Position numbers and translations under genes: made by a program. Under the pieces are notes generated by a model. That model did not search any database. It saw nothing but the letters and a program-made list of their open reading frames with translations, and had not been told where the DNA came from. A stretch of DNA of 33,156 bases from Candidatus Parcubacteria bacterium (GTDB taxonomy: Bacteria; Patescibacteriota; Patescibacteriia; CAIXNZ01), in NCBI GenBank assembly GCA_026395755.1, contig JAPLYC010000058.1, positions 1 through 33,156 of the forward strand. The letters are read 5' to 3'. Of this stretch, positions 5,614-33,155 are shown in pieces (positions within the stretch are counted from its first letter, which is position 1; every line of letters starts with the position of its first letter).

Positions 5614-6078
5614 TTATTTAATTAAAAATCTTTCAATAAAAAAATATGCCAAAATCATATAAGATACAAAATTCATCAATAAGGATGAGACAAAAAGGTC
5701 TTTTTTACTTACGCTTTTAAAAAATAAGAGCAGCACTAGCCACTCAACAAGAATAGTCACAAAAAAACTGGTAACAAAAACCAGGGACTCCATTTGCAAA
5801 ACATTTAAACTCCTGCCCCAAAATAACATAAAAATAAGAGCGCCAAGAATATAAGTAACAATATTAGCGAGCAAAACAGCTACAATTATTTTCCAAAGCC
5901 GAATTTGATATTTTAGCAATTTACCCAAGGTCAAGTATAATACAAACATTTCCAAAACAATAATCGCGAAAAATAAGAATGGATCATAATTCATAAATGG
6001 CATATAACCATCCGCCCGCGCAATTTCAGGTAACATTAATAAAACTACAATGAAACTAAATAAAAAATATTTCTTCAT
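5614..6078 (-). CDS. Four-segment membrane protein, paralog of the adjacent gene (copy 2)
   Basis: The family is not recognised. The 154-residue protein has an N-terminal hydrophobic signal ending in an AxA-like site (LPEIARAD), followed by YMPFMNYDPF and three further long hydrophobic segments at about residues 35-55, 60-85 and 98-120, with a last one at about 130-148. It aligns without a gap to the neighbouring 154-residue protein, with about 101 identical positions (66 percent, counted by eye), so the pair arose by tandem duplication. Conserved shared motifs are YMPFM.Y.PFLF, LGKLLKY and VLQME.LV. The 37-nt gap to its paralog suggests cotranscription after ligA. Confidence 0.8.
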   Translation of the reverse strand: MKKYFLFSFIVVLLMLPEIARADGYMPFMNYDPFLFFAIIVLEMFVLYLTLGKLLKYQIRLWKIIVAVLLANIVTYILGALIFMLFWGRSLNVLQMESLVFVTSFFVTILVEWLVLLLFFKSVSKKDLFVSSLLMNFVSYMILAYFFIERFLIK

Positions 6079-6115
6079 AATTGCTTAATTAAGTCTAAAA
6101 ATATTTCTTCATTTA

Positions 6116-6580
6116 TTATTTAATTAAAAATCTTTGGACAAAGAAATAAGTCAAAATTGAATAAGAAACAAAATTCATCAAGAAAGAGGCGGCCAAAAGA
6201 TCCTTTTTTCTAACTGTTTTAAAAAATAGAATCAGGATTAGCCATTCAACTAAAATGGTCACAATAAAACTGGTGATTAAGACTAAAAACTCCATCTGTA
6301 AAACAGTTGAAGTCCTGCGCCAATATAACAGATAAACAAAACCTCCAAGAAAATAAGTTATTAAATTAGCGCTAAAAACCGCCAATATAATTTTCCAAAT
6401 CTTTATTGGATATTTTAATAATTTACCTAAAACCCAGTATAATATTAACATTTCTAACACAATAATCGCTAGAAATAAAAAAGGGTTATACTCCATAAAC
6501 GGCATATAAAGATCTGCCCAAACAACCTCAGGCAATATCAATGAGACTAAAACAAAACTTAACAAAAATATTCGTTTCAT
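6116..6580 (-). CDS. Four-segment membrane protein, paralog of the adjacent gene (copy 1)
   Basis: The 154-residue protein has the same length and architecture as the gene at 5614-6078: a signal segment ending LPEVVWAD, YMPFMEYNPFLF, and three or four transmembrane helices with a conserved acidic residue in each of IIVLEM and ILVEW. Its start is 3 nt from the ligA stop codon, so translation is probably coupled to ligA. No SD is visible. The function is unknown. The buried glutamates and the retention of both copies without a length change suggest the two proteins could form a heteromer; this is inference only. Confidence 0.8.
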   Translation of the reverse strand: MKRIFLLSFVLVSLILPEVVWADLYMPFMEYNPFLFLAIIVLEMLILYWVLGKLLKYPIKIWKIILAVFSANLITYFLGGFVYLLYWRRTSTVLQMEFLVLITSFIVTILVEWLILILFFKTVRKKDLLAASFLMNFVSYSILTYFFVQRFLIK

Positions 6581-9248: not shown

Positions 9249-9987
9249 TTAAATAGCTGATAAATAAACGCCGGATAAAATCAAATTGCCAACCAGCAAA
9301 ACAACTATGGCCGCCCCGGCTAAAAAACTGCCCATAGGCAGCATATCTCCGATTTTTTTCTGTTTCGTCAATAATAATATCGTGGCAATGATACCGCCGA
9401 TTATATACGCTAAAGCTAATGTCAGTACAGTAAATTGCCAGCCCAGCATTACTCCCAATAAAGCACCCAGTTTAACATCACCCAAGCCCACCCATTTTTG
9501 AGCTGACAACAGATATTGAGCGCCGAAAAACCCGGCACCGATAATTCCCCCTCCTAACAATTCCCAATACCCAATTCCCAATTAAACTGATAAAAAAGGC
9601 CGGCCAAATAATTTTATCCAGAATTAAATAATGACGCCAGTCAAAAATCAGAATAAGCAGTAAAGTAGAAATAAAAAATAAATCCCGGACTAAAAACCAG
9701 CTAAAGGCTCCGTATTTTATAAAAACTAAGGCAAAAAGAATACCGGTTACCAGTTCAATAAAAAAATATGGTTTACCAATCGGCTTTTTACAGAAGCGGC
9801 AATTCCCTTTTAACCGTAAAAAACTTAGCAAAGGTATCAAATCCCGATTCCATATTTTTTTTCGGCAGTGAGGACAAAAAGAACGCCCCCAAAGAGGGAC
9901 TTTTTTTGCCAAACGATATAGGCAGCAATTTAAAAAACTACCAGCAATAATACCTAACAAAAAGAAAAACAAAATGTTTATTATCAT
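9249..9987 (-). pseudogene. pilD: Prepilin peptidase, frame broken at a 7-bp repeat array (possibly phase-variable)
   Basis: Two overlapping ORFs together encode one type IV prepilin leader peptidase/N-methylase. The 5' part (9478-9987) has the N-terminal helix GIIAGSFLNCCLYRL, the CPHC...CRFC zinc tetrad and the first aspartates (IFDWRHYLILDKI). The 3' part (9249-9581) has the second catalytic aspartate in GLGDVKLG and the last helices. The parts differ by one frame step: the span is 739 bp, one more than a multiple of three. The break coincides with four tandem 7-bp units at 9556-9583. Removing one unit gives an open frame of 243 residues reading SLIGYWELLGGGIIGAG across the junction; adding two units also restores it. 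Phase variation, a fixed null mutation and an assembly error are all possible. All other catalytic and zinc residues are intact, arguing against old decay. Confidence 0.85.
9556..9583 (-). repeat. Four-unit heptamer array inside pilD
   Basis: Minus-strand units are AATTGGG, AATTGGG, TATTGGG and AATTGTT. The array sits between helices of PilD at the frame break. Each unit change alters the frame by one. Confidence 0.85.
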
Positions 9988-15434: not shown

Positions 15435-15440
15435 TTTACA

Positions 15441-15545
15441 TTAGATTTTAGTGTTTTAGATTTTCCACCTTCGCTCTTCGAGCTTCGGCGGACAGGTAGA
15501 TTTTGGATTATTACCTAGAACCTAAAATCTAAGATCCAAAATCTA
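15441..15545. repeat. Heptamer array with orientation switch and a 32-bp GC-rich insert
   Basis: Positions 15497-15545 divide into seven 7-bp units, from TAGATTT and TGGATTA to AAATCTA, AGATCCA and AAATCTA, so the motif flips strand mid-array and creates the inverted repeat AGATTTTGGAT / ATCCAAAATCT. Positions 15441-15464 continue the same grammar. Between them is a 32-bp GC-rich segment (15465-15496) flanked by TAGATTTT on both sides. It lies in the predicted pilM leader. Confidence 0.75.
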
Positions 15546-15550
15546 TTTAT

Positions 15551-15579
15551 ATTATACCACAAAATACCTAAAATTCACA
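15551..15579 (-). promoter_or_regulatory. Promoter of the pilM cluster
   Basis: Minus-strand TGTGAA, a 17-bp spacer and TATAAT just downstream of the RNase H-like stop give a leader of about 110 nt that contains the heptamer array. Confidence 0.5.
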
Positions 15580-16696: not shown

Positions 16697-16776
16697 CGTG
16701 AATCGGTATCGACATCCGTTTCGTTATCCGTTTACCGTCAACCGAATCGTCAACCTAAACCGTATAACGAAAAACG
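16697..16776. repeat. CpG-lattice palindromic element, copy 1
   Basis: CpG cytosines stand at 16697, 16704, 16710, 16717, 16722, 16729, 16736, 16743, 16748, 16761, 16768 and 16775. Position 16755 reads CT instead of CG. The lattice is symmetric about 16733. Arms TTCGTTATCCGTTTA and TAAACCGTATAACGAA pair. It lies between the VIT-VWA terminator and the PilZ gene. Confidence 0.8.
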
Positions 16777-16785
16777 AATTAAAAA

Positions 16786-24275: not shown

Positions 24276-24362
24276 CGTCTTACGTTTTTCGGTATCGTTT
24301 CTCGATTCGTCTAACGTTTAACGTAATACTAAACGATTACCGAAACCGAATATCGACCAACG
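24276..24362. repeat. CpG-lattice palindromic element, copy 2
   Basis: CpG cytosines at 24276, 24283, 24290, 24296, 24303, 24308, 24315, 24322, 24334, 24341, 24347, 24354 and 24361; 24329 reads CT. The lattice is symmetric about 24319. Arms TTCGGTATCGTTT and AAACGATTACCGAA pair. It fills the space between two convergent genes. Confidence 0.82.
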
Positions 24363-24371
24363 GTTTACTTG

Positions 24372-26167: not shown

Positions 26168-26275
26168 GTCATGATGAGCCCTTCAGCTCAGGGCAAGCTT
26201 TACGAGTTTACAGTGAGCGTAGCCGAACTGAGCCATGACGCCGACGAGTCACCCTTCGACTAAGCTCAGGGTGAC
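26168..26275. repeat. Composite inverted repeat of the GTCACCCT...AGGGTGAC type
   Basis: The right part is GTCACCCT (26248-26255) and AGGGTGAC (26268-26275) around TCGACTAAGCTC. The left part has GTCATG/CATGAC arms (26168-26173, 26233-26238). The right half, including the CGCCGACGA lead-in, recurs at 28480-28516. Such palindromes are widespread dispersed repeats in many bacterial genomes. Confidence 0.8.
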
Positions 26276-26282
26276 AAAAAAC

Positions 26283-28438: not shown

Positions 28439-28529
28439 ACGGCCGCTCTCGTGTCATGGTGAGCTTAGTCGAACCATACGCCGACGACGTCACCCGTTCG
28501 ACTAAGCTCAGGGTGACAAGAGCGGCCGT
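28439..28529. repeat. 91-bp long imperfect hairpin element
   Basis: Outer arms ACGGCCGCTCT and AGAGCGGCCGT (perfect, 11 bp) enclose inner arms GTCATGGTGAGCTTAGTCG and CGACTAAGCTCAGGGTGAC. Together they form about 33 bp of near-continuous pairing around a loop of about 20 nt. It starts about 25 bp upstream of the lepA -35. The inner part shares its right half with the repeat at 26248-26275. Confidence 0.85.
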
Positions 28530-28603
28530 TCGCTTCAAATTCGCATGTGTTAAATTACAATTGTTTAAATCTCACCAACCGCGATTCGCATTAATTAAAA
28601 AAA

Positions 28604-28622
28604 CCGAGCCTTGTGAGCCCGG
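28604..28622 (-). terminator. Terminator of the 108-residue orphan
   Basis: CCGAGCC-TTGTG-AGCCCGG, read on the minus strand as CCGGGCT/GGCTCGG with G-U pairs, is followed by a T-run. Its core GAGCCTTGTGAGCCC is identical to that of the murJ terminator. Confidence 0.8.
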
Positions 28623-29112: not shown

Positions 29113-29131
29113 ACGAGCCTTGTGAGCCCGT
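29113..29131 (-). terminator. Terminator of murJ
   Basis: ACGAGCC-TTGTG-AGCCCGT with a nine-base T-run on the minus strand. The 15-bp core is identical to that of the 28604 terminator. Confidence 0.78.
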
Positions 29132-29135
29132 ATCT

Positions 29136-29177
29136 ATTAACTATTAGCCATTTGTCATTAGCCACAAGCCATTAAAC
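29136..29177. repeat. Six-unit heptamer array over the murJ stop codon
   Basis: Units ATTAACT, ATTAGCC, ATTTGTC, ATTAGCC, ACAAGCC and ATTAAAC lie in exact 7-bp register. The last unit contains the murJ stop codon. It is similar in kind to the heptanucleotide STRR arrays of cyanobacteria. Confidence 0.85.
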
Positions 29178-30821
29178 TTCAACGTTCTCGTCCATACTCT
29201 CCTTAGGATAATTTTCCTTTTCCTTAAAGATTCTCTTTTTCAGAGAATTAACAAAAGTTATCATTTCCTGAGATTTCAAAGCCAGGCCAACCACAATAAA
29301 GACGGCAATACCTACCAAGCCGGCGATTAAACCCTGCAAAAAAATACCGATAAAAGTCGTGGTGCCAAAATAAGGTTCAATACCGAATTTCATAAATTGA
29401 GTTACTACAGCCAGGGCCAAAGTCGCGACTGATATTTTAAAGACTGACCAAATCACATTTTTTTCATCCAGACTTCCGGCTCTGAGTCGCAAGCCTATCC
29501 ACAGCAAAGCAAAATTCAAAATGCTGGATATGGAAAAAGCCAAAGCCAGACCGCTGACACCCAGATCAAAATTATAACCTAAAAATTCAAAAGGTTTAAT
29601 TAAAATTAGGCTTAAAATTATATTAATCACTGAAGAAATTAAACCTAAAATGAAGGGAGTTAAAGAATTTTGAAACGCATAATAACCTCGGATTAAAAGC
29701 GGAATCAAAGCCTGGGCAAATAAACTAATCGTAAACATAGCCAACGTATCAATAGTCAAAACAGTATCCTCCCAAGTAAATTGGCCGGAACCCAAAATCA
29801 CACGTACGATCTGAGCGCGCAAAACCAGAAGTAAAACAGAAGCCGGGATCATAAAAAATAAAATCTGGCGGGTGGTATTGGAAAAACTATGAATAAATTC
29901 CTTTTTATCTTCTTTAATCGCCAAAGCTGCCAAAGTAGGAAAAGCAGCAATGGCAAAGGAGATGCCAAAAATACCGACCGGAAAAATCTGCAAATTATTG
30001 GCCAGATTAAATATGGCCAAAGACCCGCCGGCCAAAGTCGAAGCGACAATAGTAATAACAACCAAATTTAATTGATTGATTGCCAAGGTCAATGTTCTGG
30101 GCACCATAATTCTGCCGATTTTTTTAATGGCTTCATCCTTCCAATTAAAAATCAACTGATAGCGAAAACCCAACCAGGTACAGGACGGGATTTGAACCAA
30201 TAAATGTAAAAATGCACCCAGTACTACGCCCCAGGCCAAACCCTCAATGCCCCACCACGGCACAAAGACCAAAGCGCCGAAAATAATTCCCAGATTATAA
30301 AATATCGGAGCGAAGGAATAAACTAAAAATCTTTTAAAAGACTGCAAAACACCGCCCAAGACGCTGCTAATTCCCAAAAGAAGCGGACTTAGAAACATAA
30401 TACGAGTCAAAGCAATTGTAGTGGCCATTTTGTCACCGCTAAATCCCGGGGTAATCAATTGCATCAATTGCGGCGCAAAAATAAAAAGCAGCCCGCATAA
30501 AACCAGCAAACCTATAATTATCAGATTCAAAATTTCATTAGTCAAACGCCAGGCCTTATCATTTTCCTGTCGTTGTAAATATAAAGTAAAAATCGGGATA
30601 AAACCCGCTGACAAGGCTCCCAAAACCAAAAGGTTGAAAATCAAATCGGGTATTCTAAAGGCCGCATAATACGTATCCAAGGTATCACCGGCGCCGAATT
30701 GACCGGCCAAAATTCTGTCCCTGATCACACCTAAAAAACGGCTTGCCAATGAAGCCGCGCCCACGATAATGGCTGCCGAGGTGATAGTCTTGGACTCTCC
30801 GTTTATTAAGCTTTTAATCAT
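29172..30821 (-). CDS. murJ: Lipid II flippase MurJ (MviN family)
   Basis: The 549-residue protein has about 14 hydrophobic helices and the MurJ-specific N-terminus AASLASRFLGVIRDRILAGQFGAGD...DTYYAAFRIPD, with family arginines and aspartates in place. MurJ flips lipid II across the cytoplasmic membrane for peptidoglycan synthesis. The polar tail (KEKENYPKESMDENVEV) is cytoplasmic. There is no SD. The CpG-lattice element at 30824-30903 reaches to within 3 bp of the start codon, so the leader, if any, is made of that element. Confidence 0.95.
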   Translation of the reverse strand: MIKSLINGESKTITSAAIIVGAASLASRFLGVIRDRILAGQFGAGDTLDTYYAAFRIPDLIFNLLVLGALSAGFIPIFTLYLQRQENDKAWRLTNEILNLIIIGLLVLCGLLFIFAPQLMQLITPGFSGDKMATTIALTRIMFLSPLLLGISSVLGGVLQSFKRFLVYSFAPIFYNLGIIFGALVFVPWWGIEGLAWGVVLGAFLHLLVQIPSCTWLGFRYQLIFNWKDEAIKKIGRIMVPRTLTLAINQLNLVVITIVASTLAGGSLAIFNLANNLQIFPVGIFGISFAIAAFPTLAALAIKEDKKEFIHSFSNTTRQILFFMIPASVLLLVLRAQIVRVILGSGQFTWEDTVLTIDTLAMFTISLFAQALIPLLIRGYYAFQNSLTPFILGLISSVINIILSLILIKPFEFLGYNFDLGVSGLALAFSISSILNFALLWIGLRLRAGSLDEKNVIWSVFKISVATLALAVVTQFMKFGIEPYFGTTTFIGIFLQGLIAGLVGIAVFIVVGLALKSQEMITFVNSLKKRIFKEKENYPKESMDENVEV

Positions 30822-30823
30822 AT

Positions 30824-30903
30824 CGTAAATCGACTATCGGTTTCGTTGGACGTTACGTTATACGTTTAACGATAAACGTAACGAATGTCGATACCGAATA
30901 ACG
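30824..30903. repeat. CpG-lattice palindromic element, copy 3
   Basis: CpG cytosines at 30824, 30831, 30838, 30844, 30851, 30856, 30863, 30870, 30877, 30882, 30889, 30895 and 30902, symmetric about 30867. It fills the gap between the CcdA-like gene and murJ and shares long identical stretches with the copy at 32915-33001. Confidence 0.88.
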
Positions 30904-30908
30904 AATAA

Positions 30909-32914: not shown

Positions 32915-33001
32915 CGTTATAAGTTAATCGGTTTCGTTTGGCGTTACGTTATACGTTTAACGTTAAACGAAACGTATCCCGATACCGCAAAACGATTTAC
33001 G
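32915..33001. repeat. CpG-lattice palindromic element, copy 4
   Basis: CpG cytosines at 32915, 32929, 32935, 32942, 32947, 32954, 32961, 32968, 32973, 32980, 32986, 32993 and 33000, symmetric about 32958. The centre is the perfect 16-bp palindrome CGTTTAACGTTAAACG (32954-32969... arms flanking 32961). The last CpG lies in the final sense codon of the upstream hydrolase gene. Confidence 0.88.
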
Positions 33002-33155
33002 ATTTCACTACTTTAAACATTCCCGCATGCCCCGGAATAATATAATCAGCCAAATTGACCACCCGAGCCTGATTCTTTAATAGCGCCTTTTTGTCCTTAA
33101 CCATAATATTTTTCTCTTTTTGTTTGGCCCAAAATAAATCACCCACAATAGCAAT
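32997..33155 (-). CDS. Metallo-beta-lactamase-fold hydrolase, C-terminal 52 residues only
   Basis: The frame enters from the window edge and ends at TAA (32997-32999). AIVGDLFW supplies the conserved late Asp strand of the fold, and the end reads RVVNLADYIIPGHAGMFKVVKS. This closely matches the ADWIIPGHG.MFKV signature that closes many small metallo-beta-lactamase-fold hydrolases (last histidine ligand in PGH). The substrate is unknown. Its stop codon is embedded in CpG-lattice copy 4. Confidence 0.8.
   Translation of the reverse strand: MAIVGDLFWAKQKEKNIMVKDKKALLKNQARVVNLADYIIPGHAGMFKVVKS

Follow-up and report, generated by a model that had tools for sequence, protein, structure and literature searches.

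Degenerate 7-nt repeat arrays in a Parcubacteria genome and their relation to small dispersed hairpins

Heptameric repeats are known to be over-represented in bacteria, and polymerase slippage was suggested earlier as an explanation (work cited in PMC4692102 and PMC4679880). The heptanucleotide and long simple sequence repeats (SSRs) of bacteria, such as the STRRs of cyanobacteria, GGGAATC in Xanthomonas and GGGGAYT in Nostoc, consist of degenerate intergenic 7-nt units, the same gap can be altered between related species and some copies are inverted, but each genome is dominated by one or a few words (PMC4692102). The TAACTGA repeats of Beggiatoaceae likewise form many intergenic sets of 7-nt direct repeats; they differ in being built from one exact word, nearly always in direct orientation, and related words are rare (PMC4679880). 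Degenerate heptamers of two word classes that pair into a hairpin have been described for P6b of the Nostoc tRNA-Leu intron, that is, at one intron position (PMC3488679). Finally, ERIC- and MITE-like palindromes and REPs are short, dispersed and intergenic, and their mobility is non-autonomous or unexplained (PMC2229807, PMC3733652).

The window analyzed here, a 33,156-nt stretch of DNA from a Candidatus Parcubacteria genome, contains degenerate heptamer arrays at 9556-9583, 15497-15545 and 29136-29177 (scores 14, 11.5 and 11.5), all three of which had been pointed out in a sequence-only reading. In contrast to bacterial SSRs, the repeats of this genome use many words and include inverted arms that match each other as well as dispersed hairpins with sharp ends; unlike the Nostoc intron repeats they form a genome-wide intergenic set; and, in contrast to ERIC, MITE and REP sequences, no transposase was found and no target duplication established for them. 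As the sequence-only reading had supposed, such arrays seem not to have been reported from genomes of this type, since a search of mostly open-access literature found no paper on them in Parcubacteria, Patescibacteria or the candidate phyla radiation. Heptamer over-representation as such is thus already known, while the hairpin-ladder form was not found described. The features discussed below are:

9556..9583, minus strand: AATTGGG-type array inside a prepilin-peptidase-like gene, whose ORF shifts frame here (tblastn)
15439..15546, minus strand: hairpin of family F4 with AAAATCTA-type arms, which pair; it holds the array at 15497-15545
15465..15496, no strand assigned: distinct short palindrome CCACCTTCGCTCTTCGAGCTTCGGCGGACAGG inside the F4 copy, variably present among copies
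15551..15556, minus strand: TATAAT-like -10 box (TGTGGTATAATATA in both species) upstream of the F4 hairpin
16697..16785, no strand assigned: copy of family F1 (sequence matches)
24283..24371, no strand assigned: F1 copy, missing at the orthologous gap of the sister genome (sister comparison)
29114..29130, minus strand: hairpin resembling an intrinsic terminator, with a trailing T run, immediately downstream of the murJ array (read from the sequence)
29131..29171, minus strand: the murJ array, five to six degenerate GGCTAAT-type heptamers (score 11.5)
29172..30821, minus strand: murJ (PF03023, 325 bits; relatives 73-91% identical), its 3' end adjoining the array
30828..30908, no strand assigned: F1 copy in the gap upstream of murJ, the same site being filled in the sister genome (sister comparison)
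32927..33010, no strand assigned: F1 copy, missing at the orthologous gap of the sister genome (sister comparison)

The array at 29131-29171 reads TGGCTTG TGGCTAA TGACAAA TGGCTAA TAGTTAA TAG on the minus strand; it is directly preceded by the stop codon of murJ, and on its far side lies the terminator, of which a 25-nt near copy is found at 28597-28621. A whole-genome DNA search with this array recovered only the array itself and the terminator match, a search for phage relatives found none, an Rfam search of the window gave no match, and the inverted-partner score of 5 equals the background, so that this is a lone array without an inverted partner. The closest MurJ proteins are encoded by a Candidatus Parcubacteria MAG (91% identity) and by Falkowbacteria, Uhrbacteria and Buchananbacteria MAGs (73-76%). 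Among six murJ ends, which were read by eye and without a statistical test, heptamers of GGCTAAT type are found here, of AAAGTTC type with a core like that of family F2 in the sister genome (G001), of AATTAGG type in L057 and of GAAGTAC type in L056, and L054 and L055 showed no clear array at this position. These differing heptamers agree with an excess of arrays starting at most 5 nt from stop codons in the genome under study (7 compared with 1.3 expected).

The preference for a step of 7 nt extends over the whole genome. Arrays were scored by one rule throughout (match +1, mismatch -1.5, score of at least 11), and a 403-kb sample, consisting of the window and 40 contig stretches, was taken from the assembly (1.46 Mb in 120 contigs, with a contamination estimate of 6.6%). 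This sample contains 47 arrays of period 7, and the remaining periods between 4 and 15 yield 0-10 each; first-order Markov shuffles gave 0.67 period-7 arrays (about 0.05 per window-sized stretch), and tandem 7-nt units thus occur above chance, as they do in SSRs. Autocorrelation of the noncoding DNA was 0.305 at lag 7 compared with 0.279-0.296 at lags 4-6 and 8-10, which bears out the genome-wide lag-7 excess anticipated from the window. Over 1.73 Mb from this and 25 related genomes, 138 noncoding lag-7 arrays were found as against 2-28 at lags 5, 6 and 8-11, and 48 arrays fall within predicted ORFs. Per 100 kb, and with some genome samples of 20 kb or less, lag-7 arrays number 11.7 in this genome, 15.9 in the sister genome, 17.5 in both G003 and G037, 25 in G025 and 36 in G016; their density is zero in G010, G014, G022, G026 and 100 kb of Escherichia coli K-12. 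The lag-7 excess is therefore common to several relatives in the class Patescibacteria and absent from others. Heptamer arrays, some of them hairpins between stop and start codons, are also present in Clostridia MAGs that entered the comparison by chance through the MurJ search (L058, L062, L066; words ACTGTNN, GTAAGAG and CAATTGA). Loss of MutS was considered as a cause of the arrays and rejected: the genome under study and its sister have MutS, and G003, G016 and G037 are without it. MutS is encoded in most of the sampled genomes of the same family, yet in only 8 of the 38 sampled genomes overall.

The words had been described as unrelated between loci. They do differ by locus, but they are not fully independent, as 13.5% of the array pairs within this genome agree with at most one mismatch compared with about 4% in the nulls. 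The sister genome shares the word set (14.6%) and G003, a member of the same family, does not (0.7%); each genus thus seems to have its own word dialect, and the 7-base arrays of other genera are made of words of their own. Most arrays do not share flanking sequence. Common flanking k-mers were rejected as a general mark of the arrays, none being strong and the ATTTNGGAA core marking the single family F2; a common register of stop codon and array, although suggestive by eye, was not significant (p 0.19), and a preference for words that contain a stop in the sense orientation (0.72 vs 0.66 antisense and 0.60 shuffled) was too weak.

Many arrays are paired. An inverted partner with the same word lies within 150 bp of 59 of the 140 noncoding arrays in the sampled set of 26 genomes. 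When words are taken from other arrays, about 4 would be expected (Wilcoxon p 1e-11), and same-orientation partners are not in excess, which identifies these 59 arrays as hairpin arms. The same test gave no inverted partner for the other 81, the murJ array included. With ORFs called by a simple longest-ORF rule, hairpins between codirectional genes begin 7 nt past the stop codon and extend to 10 nt from the next ORF (both medians); in some cases a promoter box takes the place of the stop codon. Arrays are densest in codirectional gaps (0.88 per kb) and rarest in convergent ones (0.30), with divergent gaps in between (0.58). About one in nine spacers between codirectional genes in the sampled Patescibacteria holds a heptamer array, and the arrays may thus shape mRNA ends.

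Several hairpins are members of dispersed families of approximately 80-135 bp, for which the match counts given here include both orientations of the palindromes as well as fragments. F1, the 'CpG lattice' of the sequence-only reading, is an imperfect palindrome with CG about every 7 nt and 47 matches in this genome. F2 has AAAGTTC-type arms around the ATTTNGGAA core (9 matches in this and 35 in the sister genome), F3 has CAATAAT-type arms (24 and 69 matches), and F4 has 26 matches in this genome, the best with 94% identity over 66 nt, and a single match of 20 nt in the sister. Aligned F3 copies have common sharp ends and unrelated flanks. At each 7-nt step CAA (TTG in the other arm) is conserved at about 2 bits, compared with roughly 0.3-1.7 bits for the bases in between, and the autocorrelation of conservation at lag 7 is 0.29 for one arm and 0.57 for the other. 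In RNAalifold mainly the fixed triplets are paired, with only one compensatory pair. Several F3 copies, though not all, have TTAA-like ends. An internal 7-nt ladder of this kind is not known from ERIC, MITE or REP palindromes. Orthologous gaps are both filled and empty, a feature which, together with the common ends and unrelated flanks of F3, is shared with MITE and ERIC elements: when the genome under study (G000) is compared with its sister, three sites are empty in the latter (15439-15546, 24283 and 32927) and one is shared (30828). Elsewhere in the window, at 5614-6580, two adjacent membrane-protein genes with DNA 76% identical over 300 nt represent a tandem duplication; at the equivalent position the sister genome shows no more than a gap of 43 bp.

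The array at 15497-15545, with a run of CTAAAAT-type heptamers at 15513-15543 (score 11.5), belongs to such an element. The F4 hairpin that contains it lies downstream of a -10-like box and ahead of the following start codon, and this box is common to the sister genome, which lacks the hairpin. The nested CCACCTTCGCTCTTCGAGCTTCGGCGGACAGG(TAG) palindrome is missing from the F4 copies L226 and L228, lies elsewhere in L227 and, in L231, occurs outside F4. Among L226-L231 it is thus found at differing places in some F4 copies and also alone, and constitutes another, REP-like repeat set within the hairpins. A process rather than one mobile sequence had been proposed for the arrays. For the period this holds, because unrelated words share the step across genera and in Clostridia, which one mobile sequence cannot cause; for individual loci it is not supported, as 59 of the 140 arrays are hairpin arms and several hairpins belong to dispersed families, the array at 15497-15545 to one of them. 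Nor are all arrays intergenic, as 9558-9583 (CAATTCC CAATACC CAATTCC CAATT; score 14) lies inside the prepilin-peptidase-like gene. This gene occupies two overlapping frames at 9249-9987, which are split at the array, and is intact in the sister genome; in a tblastn search with the intact sister protein the two frames join at 9556-9583. The frame break is either a real frameshift or an assembly error.

We favor, with moderate confidence, the view that many arrays derive from small dispersed hairpin elements built in 7-nt steps, being either their arms or single arms that were left behind. It is supported by the dominance of period 7, the inverted partners, the dispersed families with the sharp-ended copies and periodic conservation of F3, and the filled and empty sites in the sister genome; the G.U excess given below would agree with it as well. 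Each step of a stem would consist of a short fixed motif (CAA in F3, CG in F1, AAAG in F2, AAATC in F4) with freer bases in between, and every genus would have its own set of families. The elements would occupy untranslated spacers, where most start no more than about 10 nt from a stop codon, or else behind a promoter box, and stop about 10 nt short of the next ORF. Copies may have spread as non-autonomous palindromes by means of some factor, and the period might be kept by something that reads or copies DNA or RNA in 7-nt steps. In transcripts the stems may act as UTR hairpins that protect the mRNA or insulate neighboring genes. The lone murJ array would then be a single-arm remnant at a site of fast sequence turnover, which is the weakest step of this scheme. 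Against this view stand the 81 arrays without an inverted partner and the flanks that most arrays do not share; moreover, no mobilizing enzyme was found, Y1 transposase genes are not near the arrays, and no target-site duplication was established.

The main rival, which we consider rather unlikely, is that the arrays are plain heptanucleotide SSRs that arise when the polymerase slips or through recurrent tandem duplication of 7 bp, with hairpins arising secondarily by template switching between arms. Such an origin had been suggested for the window, and it would agree with words that vary by locus, flanks that are mostly not shared, different words at the murJ ends of relatives, the arrays within predicted ORFs and the earlier slippage idea for over-represented bacterial heptamers. 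Slippage should, however, leave neighboring units more alike than distant ones, and unit identity in 59 partner arms does not decay (0.703, 0.710 and 0.700 at lags 7, 14 and 21), although consensus was used to select these arms and may have weakened any trend. Together with the inverted partners, the sharp-ended dispersed families and the one fixed motif at each step, as in the F3 triplet, this leads us to disfavor slippage.

Less probable still is that the hairpins were selected as UTR RNA structures independently of any mobility, the step reflecting a ligand that contacts about 7 nt, for example a cold-shock protein; CspB is described as binding heptamers (PMC4679880). The location of the hairpins, with a start codon on one side and a stop codon or promoter box on the other, would fit this explanation, and so would the densities of arrays, highest in codirectional and lowest in convergent gaps. 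It would also fit an excess of G.U over A.C mispairs on the sense strand in an enlarged set (95 vs 61, p 0.008), counts in which family copies are not independent and shared ancestry and strand-biased deamination are not corrected for. In a first, smaller set the difference was not significant (62 vs 46, p 0.15), and the excess could equally be due to a C-to-T bias on the non-template strand; RNA-level pairing of the stems thus has limited support. The single compensatory pair in F3, the different words in each genus and the high turnover at orthologous sites also speak against RNA selection. Mobilization as REP-type palindromes by Y1 (RAYT) transposases is very improbable, for although intergenic palindromes occur in many copies and array density correlates weakly with Y1 gene number (26 genomes, rho 0.46, p 0.018, relatedness ignored), arrays lie close to Y1 genes less often than to other genes (3 of 23 compared with 6.0 expected), unlike REPs that flank their RAYT gene, G013, G034 and G036 have arrays yet no Y1 match, and F3 ends carry no GTAG-type tetranucleotide. 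Several divergent Y1 transposase-domain genes are found per genome, eight of them here, many with weak scores.

If many arrays do derive from hairpin elements, two loose ends, the 7-nt preference of bacterial repeats and the spread of small palindromes, would be joined in one set of elements. More doubtfully, many bacteria might have machinery for copying or binding that recognizes not a word but a geometry, a short fixed motif recurring at 7-nt steps of a hairpin, and each lineage might thereby evolve dispersed heptad-ladder hairpins of its own, filling untranslated operon gaps. Genomes rich in these elements and their relatives without them offer a direct comparison for what sets the 7-nt step. 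As a further observation, a GTCACCCTGAGCTTAGTCGAAGGGTGAC-type palindrome occurs in several spacers of the window, including 26236-26276 and 28448-28522, and a palindrome related to GTCACCCTGAGCTTAGTCGAAGGGTGAC lies inside the hairpin downstream of murJ in the Falkowbacteria MAG (L057, approximately 1540-1610).
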